NCBI GenBank assembly: GCA_012518235.1
Contig: JAAYSY010000270.1
Coordinates: forward strand, 1 to 35,467
Direction of reading: 5' to 3'
Source of the DNA: Bacteroidales bacterium
GTDB lineage: Bacteria; Bacteroidota; Bacteroidia; Bacteroidales; Bacteroidaceae
Length of the DNA: 35,467 bases
The notes under the pieces are model-generated. The model had not been told where the DNA came from. It did no database searches and saw only the letters and a program-made list of their open reading frames with translations. Below are positions 3,268-21,604 of the stretch, piece after piece; the stretch's first letter is position 1, and each line of letters opens with the position of its first letter. The position numbers and the translations under genes are program-made.

Positions 3268-4041
3268 TTATTTGATTTTTCTTCTTACATCCGTTAAGAA
3301 GTTCTGCATGCCATCGGCATCTTTACTCTTAATGATGTTAAGCAGTTTTTGAATTTCTCCCAATATATTCTCTACCTGAGCTGGTGTTTTAGAATTAAAA
3401 AGAATTTCTTGTAATAGGTAATCATCCTCGCTTAATAATCCTTTTGCAATCTCCATGTGTTTTTTAAAAGTTGTTCCTGGAGCTTCTTGGTGTTTCATTG
3501 TAGAAGCAAAAACAAGGGTAGAAACAAATGGTATTGATAAGGAGTAAGCAGCAGTAACATCATGTTCTTCAAAAGTGTACTCAAAAATATTCAGATTTAA
3601 GCTACTATATAAATCTTTAAAAAACACTTTACCAAGATGGTTGCTTTCACTAATGATAATAGCACTTTCATTACTTAATTTATTAAGTTTTGCAAAAGTA
3701 GGACCAAACATTGGATGTGTTGAAACATACGGAAATTTACATTGTTTATAGAAGTTTTTTAACCCATTTTTAACGGATGCAATGTCACTTAATATACAGT
3801 CTTTAGGAAGTATGGGCATAATATTTTCAAAAGCTTCTATTGTATATTTGAGTGTAACAGCATTTATAACTAATTGAGGTTGAAATTTTTCAATTTCATC
3901 TAATGATGTAAATCGATAAGCGTTATGAGTAAATCGTAGTTTTTGTGAGTCACGATCGTAAATAGCTGTTTCGTGTTGAAAGCTTAATAAGTCAAGGAAA
4001 AAAGAACCCATTTTTCCAGCTCCTAAAATTAATATTTTCAT
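3268..4041 (-). CDS. tyrA: Prephenate dehydrogenase
   Basis: N-terminal Rossmann 'MKILILGAGKMGSFFLDLL', 'STHPMFGPT' motif, aromatic operon context. Confidence 0.88.
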   Translation of the reverse strand: MKILILGAGKMGSFFLDLLSFQHETAIYDRDSQKLRFTHNAYRFTSLDEIEKFQPQLVINAVTLKYTIEAFENIMPILPKDCILSDIASVKNGLKNFYKQCKFPYVSTHPMFGPTFAKLNKLSNESAIIISESNHLGKVFFKDLYSSLNLNIFEYTFEEHDVTAAYSLSIPFVSTLVFASTMKHQEAPGTTFKKHMEIAKGLLSEDDYLLQEILFNSKTPAQVENILGEIQKLLNIIKSKDADGMQNFLTDVRRKIK

Positions 4042-4069: not shown

Positions 4070-5131
4070 CTATTTATTAATAATTTCTATTTGTTGGCGA
4101 ACAGATTCTTCATGAATAGCTTGGAATATATTCTTGATAAAGTCAGAATCCATATTGCATACTTCACCTTGTTCTGCTCTTTTCTCTAAAATTTCGTTAT
4201 ATCTACCCGATTGTAATACCGTAATATTGTGCTCTTTTTTATAAATACCTATTTCACGGCAGACACGCATACGCTTTGAGAGAATTTGTATTAAATCATT
4301 ATCACAATCATCAATTTGTTTTCTAAGTACGGATAGATTTTCTGTAGATTGAATTTCATCACGAATGACTAGTAGGCTTAGTATGTATTCTAATACCTGT
4401 GGTGTAACTTGTTGTTTTGCATCGCTCCAAGCTTCATCAGGACAACAGTGACTTTCAATAATAAGTCCATCAAAGTTTAAGTCCATGGCTTGTTGACTAA
4501 TAGAAGCTATTAATTCTCTTTTTCCACCGATATGGCTTGGGTCATTAAAAATAGGTAGGTTAGGAATACGGCGACGTAATTCAATGGGAATATGCCAGTT
4601 AGGTAGATTTCTATAAATTGATTTGTCAAAACTACTAAAACCTCTATGTATAGCTGCTAGTTTAGTTATACCTACATTATAGATTCGTTCTATTGCACCA
4701 ATCCAAAGTTCTAAATCTGGATTTACTGGGTTTTTTATGAATACAGGTATATTAACCCCTTTTAATGCATCCGCAATTTCTTGAACAGCAAAAGGATTAG
4801 CTGTTGTACGAGCCCCAATCCAAAGAATGTCTATATCCGCTTTAAGAGCTTCATAAACATGTTGTGCTGTGGCTACTTCAATGGCAATATACATACCAGT
4901 TTCTTTCTTCACGCGCTTAAGCCATTGTAGACCCTCTACGCCTATACCTTCAAAACCTCCTGGTTTGGTTCTTGGTTTCCATATTCCAGCACGAAATATT
5001 TTAATATTTTTGTCGGCAAGTTCTTTTGCTGTTTTTATTACTTGTTCTTCTGTTTCTGCACTACAAGGTCCTGATATAACAATAGGTCGTTCAGGACAAA
5101 TGCCAGGTAGTAAAATTGATTCTAGTTCCAT
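4070..5131 (-). CDS. Bifunctional 3-deoxy-7-phosphoheptulonate synthase / chorismate mutase (AroQ-type C-terminus)
   Basis: DAHPS motifs 'VISGPCSAETEEQV', 'FRAGIWKPRTKPGGFEGIG', 'DPSHIGGKRE'; C-terminal 'LRKQIDDCDNDLIQILSKRMRVCREIGIYKKEH' chorismate mutase domain. Confidence 0.93.
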   Translation of the reverse strand: MELESILLPGICPERPIVISGPCSAETEEQVIKTAKELADKNIKIFRAGIWKPRTKPGGFEGIGVEGLQWLKRVKKETGMYIAIEVATAQHVYEALKADIDILWIGARTTANPFAVQEIADALKGVNIPVFIKNPVNPDLELWIGAIERIYNVGITKLAAIHRGFSSFDKSIYRNLPNWHIPIELRRRIPNLPIFNDPSHIGGKRELIASISQQAMDLNFDGLIIESHCCPDEAWSDAKQQVTPQVLEYILSLLVIRDEIQSTENLSVLRKQIDDCDNDLIQILSKRMRVCREIGIYKKEHNITVLQSGRYNEILEKRAEQGEVCNMDSDFIKNIFQAIHEESVRQQIEIINK

Positions 5132-5132
5132 A

Positions 5133-6329
5133 TTATATGTTTTTTTTGTTCATTGTGTTTTTTATGCGTTGTAATGCCTCACTTAGTTGATTGGGTGGGC
5201 AACAGAGTGAGATTCTAATGTATCGTTCTCCATTTTTTCCAAAAATAAATCCAGGAGTTATAAATACTCTAGCATTCTGTAGCACTTGTTCCGTTAGTTG
5301 TTCAACCTCTTGATAATGTGATGGGATTTTTCCCCATAAAAAAAGACCTACTTGGTTGGGGTTATAAGTACATTGTAATGTATTCATTATTTCCTCAGCA
5401 ATAATTCTTCTTTCTCTATATTGTTTATTATTTAGTTCGTACCAACTAGCCTCTGCTTGTAATGCTTTAGCTGCTGCTAACTGTAATGGGCGGAACATTC
5501 CACTGTCAATATTACTTTTGACTTTAAGTATCCATTCAATGAAAGTTGAATTTGTAGCTAACATACCGACTCTCCATCCTGGCATGTTATGACTTTTACT
5601 CATTGAGTTTAATTCAATACAACAATCTTTAGCTCCTCTAATAGATAGTAAACTTAAGGGTTCTTTGTTTAATATAAAACTATAAGGGTTGTCATTAATT
5701 AATATAATGTTCTTCCTTTTTGCAAAGGAAACTAATTTTTCAAAGAGATCTATTGTGGCTCTAGTTCCTGTAGGCATATGTGGGTAATTTATCCACATAA
5801 TTTTCACTTTTTCTAAATCCATTTGTTCCAGCTCTTGTAAGTTAGGATACCAGTTGTTTTCTTCACATAAGTTGTACTTAATAACTTCAGCACCTAATAA
5901 TTTACTTAATGAAGTATATGTAGGGTACCCTGGATCAGGAACTAATACTTTATCTCCTGGGTTGACAAAAGCCAAAGTAATATGTAAGATACCTTCTTTA
6001 GATCCAATTAAAGGTTGGATTTCATTTTTTGGATTTAAGTGTACACCATACCATTCTTTATACCATGAAGCAAAATTTTCTCTGAGTTCAGGAATACCTA
6101 TATAAGGTTGATAACCATGCGTGTTACTCTCTTTTGCTGATTCACAGAGTGTATTTATAGCTTCTTCTGATGGAGGGTTATCAGGGCTACCTATTCCTAA
6201 ATTGATAACAGGTTGCCCAGAAAGATTCATTTGAGCTACCTCTTTTAACTTTCTAGAGAAATAGTACTCGCTTATTGTTGATAACCTATTTGCTGGTTGT
6301 ATATTTATAGTGTGTTCAGTGTTTAGCAT
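5133..6329 (-). CDS. PLP-dependent class I/II aminotransferase (putative aromatic aminotransferase)
   Basis: Fold-type I motifs 'DPGYPTY', 'INDNPYSFI', 'NSMSKSHNMPGWRVG'; overlaps pheA by 14 nt within the Phe/Tyr operon. Confidence 0.9.
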   Translation of the reverse strand: MLNTEHTINIQPANRLSTISEYYFSRKLKEVAQMNLSGQPVINLGIGSPDNPPSEEAINTLCESAKESNTHGYQPYIGIPELRENFASWYKEWYGVHLNPKNEIQPLIGSKEGILHITLAFVNPGDKVLVPDPGYPTYTSLSKLLGAEVIKYNLCEENNWYPNLQELEQMDLEKVKIMWINYPHMPTGTRATIDLFEKLVSFAKRKNIILINDNPYSFILNKEPLSLLSIRGAKDCCIELNSMSKSHNMPGWRVGMLATNSTFIEWILKVKSNIDSGMFRPLQLAAAKALQAEASWYELNNKQYRERRIIAEEIMNTLQCTYNPNQVGLFLWGKIPSHYQEVEQLTEQVLQNARVFITPGFIFGKNGERYIRISLCCPPNQLSEALQRIKNTMNKKNI

Positions 6330-7146
6330 ATTCTCCTAATATTTTAAGTTGGCTTATTAAAGGCTTTATGGCAGTTAGTGCTTGTAAGTACCGTTCGTAA
6401 TTACTATACGTAACGTCAATATAAAATTGATATTCCCACTCTCTACCGATAATGGGTAAAGATTGAATTTTAGTTAGATTCATCTGGTAAAATGAAAAAA
6501 CAGATAATACTTGAGATAAGCTTCCTTCCTCATGAGGTAGTGTAAAAACCAAACTTGTTTTATTGGGCTTGATACTCGCTTTGTAAGTGTTTACAATAGG
6601 TTCATTTGCTACCAGTAAAAAACGGGTAAAATTATGCTTATTGGTTTCAATACTTTTTTGAAGTATTTTCATATTGTATTGATTGGCAGCTTCCTCCGAG
6701 CAGATGGCTGCATGTCCTTTAAGATTATTTTCTTTTATTTTTTTAGCACTCATAGCGGTATCTTCTCCTTCTACTATTTTCAATTCAGGATGCTCATTTA
6801 AAAAAGCTCTACATTGCATCAATGCTATAGGGTGAGAATTTACTTCAGTTAAATCGTTCCAGTCTTCTTCAGGAAGACAAGCAAAACAGTGTGATATGCG
6901 TAGTTTTTGTTCACCTATAATTTGAGTGTCACTTTGTTTAACTAGTTCGTTATTGTAAAGAAGGCTACCTGCTATGGTGTTTTCTATAGCTAATAGACCT
7001 AGTGTTTGAGGTTCATTTTTTAATACATTAAAAATATCTTCAAATGTTTTACAGCAGATTAAGTCTATTTGTTCTTTTTCAAAAAGAAGGTGCACTGCAA
7101 TATCATGATAGGACCCATAAGTACCTTGTATAGCTATTCTTTTCAT
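6316..7146 (-). CDS. pheA: Prephenate dehydratase with C-terminal ACT domain
   Basis: 'IAIQGTYGSYHDIAV', 'AIENTIAGSLLYN', 'NFTRFLLV'; ACT-like C-terminus 'TSLVFTLPHEEGSLSQVLSVF'. Confidence 0.93.
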   Translation of the reverse strand: MKRIAIQGTYGSYHDIAVHLLFEKEQIDLICCKTFEDIFNVLKNEPQTLGLLAIENTIAGSLLYNNELVKQSDTQIIGEQKLRISHCFACLPEEDWNDLTEVNSHPIALMQCRAFLNEHPELKIVEGEDTAMSAKKIKENNLKGHAAICSEEAANQYNMKILQKSIETNKHNFTRFLLVANEPIVNTYKASIKPNKTSLVFTLPHEEGSLSQVLSVFSFYQMNLTKIQSLPIIGREWEYQFYIDVTYSNYERYLQALTAIKPLISQLKILGEYAKH

Positions 7147-7160
7147 TGTAAATTGATGTA

Positions 7161-7200
7161 AAAAAAGAATCCCGCACCTTTTTGGAGCGGGATTCTTAAT
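7161..7200 (-). terminator. Attenuator terminator of the Phe/Tyr biosynthesis operon leader
   Basis: Minus-strand RNA AAGAATCCCGC-TCCAAAAAGGT-GCGGGATTCTT followed by a U run (plus-strand A run 7161-7167); it is located before, not after, the operon genes. Confidence 0.92.
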
Positions 7201-7232
7201 GTATTGTTTGTGTTTTTATTTTTTATAAAATG

Positions 7233-7310
7233 CTACATAGCATACCCCGCTCTACTTTTAGTTGTAAAGTAAAAAAAGAAGTAATAATATGTGTAGCTAA
7301 ATAAATTCAT
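7233..7310 (-). CDS. Phe/Tyr-rich leader peptide (25 aa): MNLFSYTYYYFFFYFTTKSRAGYAM
   Basis: Manual translation of the minus strand, ATG at 7310-7308 to TAG at 7235-7233; 11/25 residues Phe or Tyr, 10 of residues 4-15; followed by a terminator and the pheA operon. Confidence 0.88.
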   Translation of the reverse strand: MNLFSYTYYYFFFYFTTKSRAGYAM

Positions 7311-7329
7311 CTATTGCTTATAATATGTG

Positions 7330-7361
7330 CAAATGTATAGACAATAAATAAAACAAACAAA
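7330..7361 (-). promoter_or_regulatory. Bacteroidetes-type promoter for the Phe/Tyr leader
   Basis: -33-like TTTG (7361-7358), 20-nt spacer, -7-like TACATTTG (7337-7330) matching TAnnTTTG; leader ATG begins about 20 nt downstream. Confidence 0.7.
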
Positions 7362-7640
7362 TGGTTTCTCTAAAAATATATTCTTTTCATAGGCTATGTT
7401 TGAATCGAATAAAATAAAGTTTCTATGAATAATGAGAAAACTTGAGATTATTTCAGTTTTAATAAAAATTGATTAGTGAGGCTCTGTTTTTTTAGTATCT
7501 TTAGATTCTTTTAAAAGACATAAGTCAAAACAAATAGAGTAATTAAGTAGATAACTTGTCTACTTGTAAATAGTATGAAAATGGTTAGCCCAGTTGATAT
7601 TAGCTGTTGATAAAGGCTAACAGTCTAAATTTTAATTGTT

Positions 7641-9305
7641 ATGAAAAAGACAACCTTGTTATTTTTTAGTTTAGTATTGTCTGTATTCGGAATAACAGCA
7701 CAGACTTATAACGGTAAACCTTATCGGAAGGGTGTTAGACCTACAAAGAATGTTATTGTGATGATACCTGATGGTACATCAGTAGGTGTGGTTTCTGCTG
7801 CTCGTTGGTATAAAATATACAATGATTTAGGTGGAGACAATTTAGCATTAGACCCTTATTTTTGTGGAACGGTAAAAACTTATTCTTCAAATGCACCGAT
7901 TGGTGATTCAGCTCCTACTACATCATGTTATATGACAGGAATGCCTCAGCAAACAGGTAATGTAGCTATTTATCCACCGGCTGATCCTGAAAATGATTTG
8001 GTTAAGGTTGATCCAGAAATGGCATATCAACCATTGACAACTATTTTAGAGGCAGCACGAATTGTCAAAAATAAGGCTACAGGCTTAGTAGTAACTGTTG
8101 AATTTCCACATGCTACTCCTGCCGATTGTGCAGCTCATCATTATAAAAGAGGTCGTTATGATGTGTTAAGTTCTCAAATGGCATATCAAAACTTAGATGT
8201 GATGTTTGGAGGTGGAACGAGTCTTGTTACGGATGATATGAAGAATCATTTCAATGAGAAAAATATATCCTATTATACTGATGATATTTCTTCATTTAGA
8301 AATCATAAAGAGGGTAAAGTTTGGTCATTATGGTGTGAAAGAGCTATGCCCTATAATTTAGATCGTGATACTACCCAAATTCCTTCATTGCAAGAAATGA
8401 CAGAAAAGGCTATTGATTTACTTTCACAGAATGAAAGAGGATTCTTCTTAATGGTTGAAGGTAGTAAAGTAGACTGGGTTGCACATGCTAATGATGCGGT
8501 AGGTTGTATTACAGAGTTCTTAGAGTTTGATAAGGCGGTGAAGTCTGCTATCGATTTTGCTAAAGAAGATGGCAATACAACGGTTGTTGTACTTTCTGAT
8601 CATGGTAATAGTGGTTTCACCATTGGACGAAGTGATTTGAATGGTTATGATAGAGCAAGTTTAGACAAGCTTTTTGGTACAGTTTCAAAATACAAAAAAA
8701 CAGCTGAAGGATTAGAAAAGGTATTGCTGAAAGAATCTCCTGAAAACTTTAAGGAAGTTATTAAAACACATACTTCTATTGATATTACGGATGAAGAGCT
8801 ACAATCATTATTAGAGTCTAAAAATTACAAGCACGATGATTATATGACTGTTAGTGATGGGAAAAATATGATTGCTAAGTTAGTTGAAATTATGAACAAA
8901 AGAACCTATTTTGGATTCACTACGGGTGGTCACACAGGAGAAGAGGTTTTACTTGCTGCTTATCATCCACAAGGAGATGTTCCTATGGGGATGAATACGA
9001 ATATAGAAATTAACCATTACTTATCTGACGCATTAGGGTTGAATACAAGATTACCAGAGATAACTGAAGAAGTATTTGCTAAGCATACAGAGGTGTTCTC
9101 GGGTATGAATTTTATTATAGATAAAAAGAATCCTGATTTTCCTGTACTTATTGTTAAAAAAGGAAAGAAAACACTGACAGTCCCTTCATTTAAATCGGTA
9201 GCTTACCTAAATAAAGAAAAGTTTGATTTGGGCTCTGTAACTGTATATATTGATAAAAATGATACTTTTTATCTTCCAAAAAGCTTGGCGGATAAATTGA
9301 AATAG
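7641..9305 (+). CDS. Alkaline phosphatase (secreted)
   Basis: Signal peptide; 'KNVIVMIPDGTS', 'APIGDSAPTTSCYMTG', 'LSDHGNSGF', 'FTTGGHTGEEV'. Confidence 0.93.
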   Translation: MKKTTLLFFSLVLSVFGITAQTYNGKPYRKGVRPTKNVIVMIPDGTSVGVVSAARWYKIYNDLGGDNLALDPYFCGTVKTYSSNAPIGDSAPTTSCYMTGMPQQTGNVAIYPPADPENDLVKVDPEMAYQPLTTILEAARIVKNKATGLVVTVEFPHATPADCAAHHYKRGRYDVLSSQMAYQNLDVMFGGGTSLVTDDMKNHFNEKNISYYTDDISSFRNHKEGKVWSLWCERAMPYNLDRDTTQIPSLQEMTEKAIDLLSQNERGFFLMVEGSKVDWVAHANDAVGCITEFLEFDKAVKSAIDFAKEDGNTTVVVLSDHGNSGFTIGRSDLNGYDRASLDKLFGTVSKYKKTAEGLEKVLLKESPENFKEVIKTHTSIDITDEELQSLLESKNYKHDDYMTVSDGKNMIAKLVEIMNKRTYFGFTTGGHTGEEVLLAAYHPQGDVPMGMNTNIEINHYLSDALGLNTRLPEITEEVFAKHTEVFSGMNFIIDKKNPDFPVLIVKKGKKTLTVPSFKSVAYLNKEKFDLGSVTVYIDKNDTFYLPKSLADKLK

Positions 9306-18579: not shown

Positions 18580-20811
18580 ATGGAGGCATATAAAGGATTT
18601 AAAGGCTCTAAGTGGAAAGATCAAATCGATGTAAATAGTTTTATTCTTGAGAATTATACGGAATATACAGGCGACGAATCATTTCTTGAAGGTCCAACTG
18701 AAGCGACAAATGAGTTGTGGGGGAAGTTAAAAAATATGTTCAAAGTGGAACAAGAGAAAGGCATTTATGATGCTGAAACTCGCTTACCTTCGCAAATTGA
18801 TACTTATGGTCCAGGTTATATAAATAAAGACCTTGAAACGATTGTAGGAGTTCAAACAGATAAGCCATTGAAACGAGCTATTTTCCCTAATGGAGGATTG
18901 CGTATGGTGAAACAGAGTTTGAAAGAGTATGGATATGAATTGGACCCTGTGACCGATGAATTCTATACTAAATATAGAAAAACTCATAACGATGGAGTCT
19001 TTTCTGCATATACAGCAAGTATTCGTAGAGCTAGAAGCAACGGACTTTTAACAGGATTACCGGATGCTTATGGTAGAGGGCGAATCATTGGAGATTATCG
19101 TCGTGTGGCTTTGTATGGTGTTGATAGGTTAATAAATGAACGAAAATTACGATTTAAGGAATGTGATCCTACAGAAATGACAGACGATTTAATTCGTTTA
19201 CGTGAGGAGTTAAGTGATCAAATTGCTGCATTGGGAGCATTGAAAACGATGGCTCAGTCGTATGGATTCGATATATCACAACCGGCTACTACAGCTCAAG
19301 AAGCAATACAATGGACTTATTTTGGCTATTTGGGTGCTATTAAAGACCAGAATGGAGCAGCTATGAGTTTAGGTAGGGTAAGTACCTTTTTAGATATTTA
19401 TGTAGAAAGAGATTTGCAAGCTGGTAAAATCACAGAAAAAGAGGCTCAAGAGTTTATTGATCATTTTGTAATGAAATTACGGATTGTGCGTTTCTTGAGG
19501 ACTCCTGAATATGATGAGTTATTTTCTGGAGACCCAATTTGGGTAACAGAATCGCTAGGGGGGATGGCTAATAATGGAAAGTCTTTAGTTACTAAAAATA
19601 GTTTTAGAATGTTACATACACTCTATAACTTAGGGCCAGCACCAGAGCCTAACTTAACTATTCTATGGAGTGAAAGCTTACCTGAAAACTGGAAAAAGTT
19701 TTGTGCAAAAGTATCTATAGATACTTCTTCTCTACAATATGAGAATGATGACTTAATGCGAGAGCAATTAGGTGATGATTATGGTATTGCTTGTTGTGTT
19801 TCTCCTATGCGAATTGGTGGGCAGATGCAGTTCTTTGGAGCAAGAGCAAACTTACCTAAGGCTTTATTATATACCATTAATGGAGGAAAAGACGAGAATA
19901 CGAAGGTATATGTAGTGCCTGAAGGAGAACTAGAGCCAATTAAAGGTGACTATCTTGAGTTTGATGAGGTATGGAATAAGTATGATAAAATGCTTGATTG
20001 GTTAGCTGAAACCTATGTTAAGGCTTTAAATATTATACATTATATGCATGATAAGTATTCTTATGAAGCATTAGAAATGGCTCTTCATGATGTAGATATA
20101 GTTCGCACTCAGGCTTTTGGTGTGTCGGGCTTATCAATTATAGCCGATTCTTTAGCTGCTATAAAATATGGTAAGGTTCGTATTGTTAGAGATGAAGAAG
20201 GAGATGCTATAGACTATATAAACGAGAAGGATTATGTTCCTTTTGGAAATAACGATGAGTTAACAGACCAATTTGCTATTGATGTAATTGAGAAGTTTAT
20301 GAATAAAATTCGCAATTATAAAATGTACAAAAATGCAATACCAACACAGTCTGTGTTAACTATAACTTCAAATGTTGTTTATGGTAAGAAAACTGGAAAT
20401 ACCCCTGACGGAAGAAGAGCTGGAGCTCCTTTTGCACCTGGTGCAAATCCAATGCATGGAAGAGATACAAAAGGGGCTGTGGCTTCGTTATCTTCTGTAG
20501 CTAAATTACCTTTTGAACATGCAAATGATGGAATATCTTATACGTTTGCTATTACTCCAAGTACATTAGGGGGTAATAAAGAAGAGGAAAGGAATAACTT
20601 AATAGGATTGTTAGATGGTTACTTTAATGAAAAAGGACATCATTTAAATGTGAATGTTTTTGATAGAGAGCTTTTAATTGATGCTATGGAGCATCCAGAA
20701 GAGTATCCTCAATTAACCATCCGTGTTTCTGGATATGCAGTGAATTTTGTGAAGTTAACGAAAGAACAACAGCTTGATGTTATTAATCGTACGATTACAA
20801 CTTCATTTTAA
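18580..20811 (+). CDS. pflB: Formate C-acetyltransferase (pyruvate formate-lyase)
   Basis: Catalytic Cys-Cys '[11 protein letters not shown]', glycyl radical motif '[12 protein letters not shown]'. Confidence 0.97.
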
Positions 20812-20830
20812 TAATTAAAAGAGTATATTA

Positions 20831-20867
20831 AGCAGAGAGTTTGTGTAAATTCTCTGCTTTTTATTTT
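20831..20867 (+). terminator. Intrinsic terminator between pflB and pflA
   Basis: AGCAGAGA-loop-TCTCTGCT followed by TTTTTATTTTT. Confidence 0.8.
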
Positions 20868-20875
20868 TAAGCTAT

Positions 20876-21604
20876 ATGAAGGGTTATATTCATTCCTTTG
20901 AGACTTTTGGGACAAAAGATGGACCTGGTATTCGGTTTATTGTTTTTCTGCAGGGTTGTCCATTACGTTGTTTGTATTGTCATAATCCTGATACATGGAT
21001 TAAGTCTAATGCTAGATACCAAATGACAGCTCAAGAGGTTTTCAGGGAGTATGAAAAGGTCAAGGGGTTTGTTAAGGGTGGTATAACTTTATCGGGAGGT
21101 GAGCCTTTGATGCAACCTACTTTTGTTCTTGAGCTATTAAAACTGTGTAAATCTAAAGGTGTTCATACAGCGATTGATACTTCTGGCTACTTATTCAATG
21201 AGCAAGTTAAAGATGTCTTAAATTGGACAGACTTGGTGTTGTTGGATATTAAACAGTTTGACGAGGTTAAATATAGAGAACTAACAAGTAGAGAGTTAAA
21301 ACCTACTTTGGATTTTTTAGCCTATTTAGAAAAAAAGGAGATTGATACATGGATTCGTTATGTATTAGTCCCTGGTTATACTAATCAGAAAGATGATGTT
21401 GAGGCTTTAGCTAATTATTTATCTACAAAGCAGAATATTAAGCAAGTTGACGTATTGCCATTTCATCAGTTGGGAGCGTTAAAATGGGAAGAATTAGGGT
21501 TGGAATATAAACTCAAAGAGGTGATTCCACCACTAGATGTGGAACAACGAGAGATAGAAGGAATATTTAAGAAAAGGGGGTTAAAAGTGAAAGAAAGAGA
21601 GTGA
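20876..21604 (+). CDS. pflA: Pyruvate formate-lyase activating enzyme (radical SAM)
   Basis: 'GPGIRFIVFLQGCPLRCLYCHNPDTW' CxxxCxxC cluster; adjacent to pflB. Confidence 0.95.
   Translation: MKGYIHSFETFGTKDGPGIRFIVFLQGCPLRCLYCHNPDTWIKSNARYQMTAQEVFREYEKVKGFVKGGITLSGGEPLMQPTFVLELLKLCKSKGVHTAIDTSGYLFNEQVKDVLNWTDLVLLDIKQFDEVKYRELTSRELKPTLDFLAYLEKKEIDTWIRYVLVPGYTNQKDDVEALANYLSTKQNIKQVDVLPFHQLGALKWEELGLEYKLKEVIPPLDVEQREIEGIFKKRGLKVKERE

Follow-up and report, generated by a model that had tools for sequence, protein, structure and literature searches.

A probable Phe/Tyr leader-peptide attenuator upstream of the pheA operon in Bacteroidia

The pheA attenuator of Escherichia coli (pheL) comprises a short leader ORF rich in Phe codons, followed by an intrinsic terminator and a competing antiterminator upstream of pheA. 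In the E. coli trp attenuator, control codons are located in segment 1 of an RNA that can form three mutually exclusive helices, termed 1:2, 2:3 and 3:4. Multivalent attenuators are also known from E. coli, including those of the ilvGMEDA (Ile/Val/Leu) and thrABC (Thr/Ile) operons, in which one leader senses several end products of a branched pathway. Attenuators are reportedly mentioned for the Bacteroidetes/Chlorobi in the 2004 work of Vitreschak et al. Naville and Gautheret state that, to their knowledge, demonstrated leader-peptide systems were confined to Proteobacteria and Actinobacteria, and they add Firmicutes (Naville and Gautheret 2010, PMC2965389); attenuation is thus known mainly from Proteobacteria, and also from Actinobacteria and Firmicutes (PMC2965389; PMC1262725). 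In B. thetaiotaomicron, short ORFs within long 5' UTRs are reminiscent of such leaders (Ryan et al. 2020, PMC7366714), and a predicted cis-regulatory RNA of Bacteroidetes, Bacteroid-trp (RF01692; Weinberg et al. 2010, PMC2864571), is linked to trp genes by its name.

The locus described here lies in a stretch of 35,467 nucleotides from a Bacteroidales bacterium of the Bacteroidaceae, the whole of which is referred to as the window. Upstream of its pheA-aminotransferase-DAHPS/CM-tyrA operon is an element that is very probably a trp/phe-type, ribosome-mediated transcription attenuator whose control codons interleave Phe with Tyr. Comparison of related sequences supports its leader ORF, its three mutually exclusive helices, their covariation and conservation, and a match between leader codons and operon content. 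The element resembles pheL in its leader ORF, in the competition between terminator and antiterminator and in its position upstream of pheA, but pheL is Phe-rich and serves pheA, whereas the window leader interleaves Phe with Tyr and its operon adds DAHPS/CM and tyrA. With the trp attenuator it shares the three alternative helices and the placement of control codons in segment 1, although the amino acids differ and, in leaders of the Bacteroidaceae type such as that of the window, the ORF encloses segment 2. Like the ilvGMEDA and thrABC leaders, it would sense several end products of a branched pathway; here, however, both pathway and phylum are different, and the codon mix in Bacteroidia appears to be re-tuned with operon splits.

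The first-pass annotation of this DNA had suggested a search of Rfam, and a scan of the window returned no family at its gathering score, at the leader or elsewhere. Sub-threshold similarity to generic amino-acid leaders was present, namely Thr_leader (33.3 bits), Leu_leader (29.0 bits) and Phe_leader (RF01859; 22.3 bits against a gathering score of 55); these scores, far below gathering, were dismissed as a generic leader-plus-terminator resemblance and not membership. Trp_leader (RF00513) gave only a weak wrong-strand match of 15.7 bits, whilst RF01692 had no gathering match in the window, was not among the pheA-leader matches up to E = 5 and had no match genome-wide. No report of a Bacteroidetes Phe/Tyr attenuator was found in the open-access literature, although an earlier mention in subscription papers is possible. 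The mechanism is well known; its dual, class-wide and modular form appears to be new.

The operon and its leader ORF

Pfam domains bear out the predicted operon, whose genes (7146-3268) overlap or are separated by short gaps (Table 1), with DnaG next after tyrA. The next gene upstream encodes an alkaline phosphatase (7641-9305, plus strand) and is divergent, so the leader hairpin does not mark the end of an upstream gene. Elsewhere in the window (18580-21604, plus strand), a pyruvate formate-lyase gene lies beside that of a radical SAM protein which is probably the activating enzyme of the lyase, an ordinary arrangement.

Table 1. Coordinates of the attenuator and operon features within the window
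Feature	Position	Strand	Description	Basis
Promoter -7-like motif	7330..7337	-	TACATTTG (TAnnTTTG)	Consensus match
Leader ORF	7233..7310	-	25 codons, peptide MNLFSYTYYYFFFYFTTKSRAGYAM*	Sequence and homologous leaders
1:2 leader hairpin (anti-antiterminator)	7232..7297	-	Sequesters segment 2	-16.4 kcal/mol
Core control codons Tyr8-Phe15	7266..7289	-	YYYFFFYF (4 Tyr, 4 Phe)	Within segment 1
Segment 2	7244..7252	-	GAGCGGGGU, within leader ORF; pairs with segment 3	Covariation
Segment 3	7185..7193	-	AUCCCGCUC, terminator 5' arm	Alignment pairing and covariation
Intrinsic terminator (segments 3:4 and U run)	7160..7197	-	-21.4 kcal/mol	Folding and homologues
pheA, prephenate dehydratase	6316..7146	-		PF00800
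Class I/II aminotransferase	5133..6329	-	14-nt overlap with pheA	PF00155
Bifunctional DAHP synthase / chorismate mutase	4070..5131	-		PF00793 and PF01817
tyrA, prephenate dehydrogenase	3268..4041	-		PF02153

The Phe/Tyr-rich leader ORF proposed in the first-pass annotation was recovered on re-reading the sequence, with ten Phe or Tyr among residues 4-15. When the 250 nt upstream were dinucleotide-shuffled 2000 times, no short ORF reached even nine F+Y per 12 residues, which argues that this density is not a by-product of composition, and across the whole window only one further short ORF attains eight. The leader ORF is below the length range of ordinary gene callers, and codon-level conservation suggests that it is translated. 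Its upstream region carries a match to TAnnTTTG, the -7 element of the Bacteroides promoter consensus, with a TTTG (7361-7358, minus strand) 20 nt further upstream. At 77 of 80 loci the same motif is found no more than 70 nt upstream of where the leader begins, against 6.6 expected from shuffles. Given the position of this motif, the transcription start would lie about 10-15 nt upstream of the leader ATG.

Competing RNA helices and ribosome position

In the window, the antiterminator (2:3) helix pairs GAGCGGGGU with AUCCCGCUC through nine pairs, including one G-U, at a predicted -17.9 kcal/mol. The original account of this helix, as GAGCGGG within the leader ORF (7252-7246) and a complementary CCCGCUC, holds as to complementarity, pair number and the position of GAGCGGG, but CCCGCUC is located at 7191-7185 and not 7192-7186. 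The terminator ends about 14-18 nt ahead of pheA (7146). Folding of the 166-nt leader yields -39.0 kcal/mol, compared with -21.2 +/- 3.3 for shuffles (z = -5.4), none of which was equally stable. A simple pattern-based terminator scan of positions 6500-8000 returned no match because the scanner's pattern is limited; the strong hairpin described after the leader ORF is nonetheless plain from folding and from 64 aligned homologues.

Conservation was assessed at 83 Bacteroidales pheA loci, consisting of 80 from a one-genome-per-species scan, two from same-genus genomes and the window itself. A Phe/Tyr-rich leader and terminator are located upstream of pheA in 81 of these, so both the codons and the orthologous position are kept; of the two exceptions, one has only 61 nt of contig ahead of pheA and the other (L066) has a different gene upstream. 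Both helices covary in alignment A1, which contains 64 distinct leaders, supporting the earlier proposal that terminator and antiterminator are mutually exclusive. Antiterminator cells are paired in 84.5% of cases, with 61 double-change cells, and terminator cells in 98.4%, with 110; these cells count related sequences and hence are not independent events. Neither result was reached in any of 500 shuffles, and slid controls gave 37-51% and 37-54%, respectively. Column pair 75/153 of the 2:3 helix is G-C in 23 sequences, A-U in 39 and G-U in two, with no mismatch. When column 174 is included, a C in segment 3 is accompanied by G in both partners (23 sequences), and a U by A in segment 2 and either purine in segment 4 (39 sequences). 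Segments 2, 3 and 4 thus change together in the alignment.

Every listed leader also possesses a GC-rich hairpin with a U run, and at most loci 14-35 nt separate its end from pheA. Translation-coupled Rho termination, or control of pheA translation initiation, could in principle replace intrinsic termination at this position, but the presence of this hairpin in all of these leaders, with a stem that covaries with the competing antiterminator, makes such control highly improbable.

The position of the leader stop codon varies with lineage: it either immediately precedes segment 2 or falls 17-36 nt beyond the start of that segment. At A1 columns 71-79 (window 7252-7244), it precedes segment 2 in most leaders and follows well after it in relatives of the window, so that segment 2 RNA is coding in these relatives and non-coding in most other aligned leaders. 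The short ORF might instead encode a functional small membrane protein beside an ordinary terminator, since the peptide is hydrophobic and a C-terminal KVEREFVC is conserved in several Bacteroidaceae leaders. However, KVEREFVC is encoded by segment 2 itself and is absent from Dysgonomonadaceae-type leaders, which stop just before that segment; conservation extends to the RNA pairing but not to the reading frame, and no upstream gene needs a terminator here, the neighbour being divergent. This explanation is scarcely credible, and the attenuator remains the preferred reading.

A conserved 1:2 hairpin that is predicted to hide segment 2 refines the original model. Together with the aromatic leader ORF, the terminator before the first gene and the covarying antiterminator, it completes the set of attenuator elements: when leaders are folded up to segment 3, segment 2 is placed in a hairpin with the codon run in 64 of 64 (probability > 0.5). 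The mean stability of this hairpin is -20.8 kcal/mol, against -12.1 when the upstream part is shuffled. The mean probability of segment 2 sequestration is 0.84 for real leaders and 0.65 for shuffles; because such sequestration is fairly frequent in the shuffles too, stability is preferable as a measure. Synonymous recoding weakens the hairpin on average in 62 of 64 leaders (mean z -1.6), and the hairpin base can be closed by pairing between (A/G)CAUA, a conserved leader motif, and UAUG(C/U) on the downstream side of segment 2. When folding is modelled with neither ribosome nor segment 4 present, the window 2:3 helix outcompetes 1:2 (P = 0.96), implying that basal termination depends on folding order.

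Ribosome stalling was modelled by masking a footprint codon by codon, with an assumed extent of -14 to +15 from the P site. In nearly all profiles shown, 2:3 pairing is about 0.7-1.0 while the ribosome occupies any Phe or Tyr codon of the run, and it is lost entirely one to three codons past the run, in agreement with the earlier argument that a ribosome stalled up to Phe15 frees segment 2. In this model, no leader among the 64 has fewer than two effective Phe codons or fewer than two effective Tyr codons. In 54 of 64 leaders, a ribosome that has reached the stop codon would mask half or more of segment 2; in most of these, the stop lies 2-3 nt before segment 2 (17 nt after its start in the window type). 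In the other ten it would mask less than half, and termination in these has to depend on the 1:2 hairpin folding again.

The proposed mechanism would operate as follows. Transcription would start some 10-15 nt before the leader ORF. With ample charged tRNA-Phe and tRNA-Tyr, the ribosome would reach or pass the stop codon, segment 2 would be covered or refolded into 1:2, and the 3:4 terminator would stop transcription before pheA. Were either tRNA uncharged, the ribosome would stall within Tyr8-Phe15 and open the 1:2 hairpin, allowing 2:3 to pair in place of the terminator and pheA-aminotransferase-DAHPS/CM-tyrA to be transcribed. An untranslated leader would form 1:2 and 3:4 and terminate. Actual termination, and a response to limitation of Phe or of Tyr, would be the expected outcomes of this architecture.

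Leader codons in relation to operon content

Sensing of both amino acids, as proposed in the first-pass annotation, gains independent support because leader codon content shifts with operon content. In 84 leaders of combined operons, Phe (448) and Tyr (322) codons are interleaved. Where pheA stands alone, separate from DAHPS/CM (four genomes from four families), the leader core contains 28 Phe and one Tyr, as in MTRFFTHFFFFFTQQ, MRRNSFRFFFFFAFFFC... and MITINNSFFFFFFR...; in one such leader (L223), no convincing antiterminator was found. By contrast, eight tyrA-DAHPS/CM operons with no pheA detected have leaders with 11 Phe and 41 Tyr, two of them without Phe, and five of the eight include a Trp codon. 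The PF00800 search was negative in the no-pheA genomes tested, and G230 was placed in this class on not being among the matches of the pheA search. Split tyrA/DAHPS operons with pheA elsewhere have mixed, Tyr-leaning leaders (31 Phe, 36 Tyr). The ratio Y/(F+Y) is accordingly 0.42 for combined operons, 0.04 for lone pheA, 0.80 for no pheA and 0.54 for split tyrA, the last three differing from the first by Mann-Whitney tests that ignore kinship (p = 8e-4, 3e-6 and 0.004, respectively), with classes set by gene order in draft genomes and small lone-pheA (n = 4) and no-pheA (n = 8) sets. This match between codons and operon is the best evidence, and the strongest argument, for sensing of both Phe and Tyr.

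The same attenuator might sense Phe only, with Tyr codons present only because the 1:2 hairpin requires UAC or because Phe codons have drifted. Phe does exceed Tyr in most leaders (28.7% against 18.2% of residues), and UAC is used twice as often as UAU, a synonymous choice that favours the hairpin. Against this, lone-pheA leaders are almost all-Phe yet keep the attenuator, so its structure does not need Tyr codons; Tyr-rich leaders, two lacking Phe entirely, precede tyrA operons without pheA, and at least two effective Tyr codons are retained in all 64 aligned leaders. Phe-only sensing is very unlikely on this evidence, and dual sensing is favoured.

Four genomes carry split pairs of pheA and tyrA/DAHPS loci, with a Phe-only and a Tyr-leaning leader (L185/L186 in G135, L187/L165 in G145, L222/L213 in G155 and L223/L227 in G210). 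In four others (L233, L234, L235 and L236, in G311, G157, G171 and G302), an aminotransferase-tyrA-DAHPS/CM operon lies under a Tyr(-Trp) leader and no prephenate dehydratase was found; these organisms are possibly Phe auxotrophs. A Tyr/Phe leader and terminator also precede a DAHP synthase about 32% identical to the window enzyme (L217 in G281, position 1320, minus strand). Upstream of DAHPS/CM in about 30 further genomes no leader was found; most of these stretches have no detectable relative of the other operon genes, which places DAHPS/CM in a different context there. Trp codons account for 12 of 287 non-F/Y core residues and nine of about 557 outside the core; with only this modest excess as its basis, Trp as a third input is no more than a lead.

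Distribution, tandem units and significance

A draw of 120 genomes from across the phylum includes 24 of the same class, the window's own excluded, that have a prephenate dehydratase gene, and a Phe/Tyr leader was found in 20 of these, with a terminator located by program or by eye. Several class members have a different stem sequence whilst keeping the complementarity of segments 2, 3 and 4, for example GAAACGAGGTT/AGCCTCGTTTT or GCCGGGA/TCCCGGC. In the four without a leader, pheA appears, in our reading, to follow directly after another coding sequence. Outside the class, a leader was found at only one of the loci looked at (L139). Judged from these sequences, the attenuator spans the class Bacteroidia. 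In a set of 199 genomes from the order, covariance model R1 detects the RNA in 60; some matches away from pheA (L188, L210), where no aromatic leader was found, are likely due to chance.

Two leader-terminator units in series were identified by scan at 12 of 75 combined-operon loci, although L178 represents a nested start and a few of the remainder are weak. Clear pairs occur at L166, L174, L175, L177, L184, L191, L197, L211 and L215, further pairs were recognized by eye at L017, L120 and L126, and R1 detects adjacent pairs in G201, G217, G289 and G313. Tandem attenuators are present in at least ten genomes. Such units before one operon occur in several unrelated families.

It is an evenly balanced possibility that these elements constitute a class-wide Bacteroidia attenuator family that is the default control of Phe and Tyr synthesis, with a modular codon mix (Phe-only, Tyr-rich often with Trp, or mixed) re-tuned as operons split or merge, and repeatedly duplicated into tandem two-stage switches. 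If so, the tandem switches could give graded or combined responses. Textbook attenuation, known mainly from Proteobacteria, is found here complete and with covariation support across Bacteroidia, a dominant gut class. The lone-pheA and tyrA operons amount to a natural experiment linking the codons of a leader with the products of its operon, and they make multi-input sensing directly testable, and the attenuator would offer a compact, predictable control element for Bacteroides.
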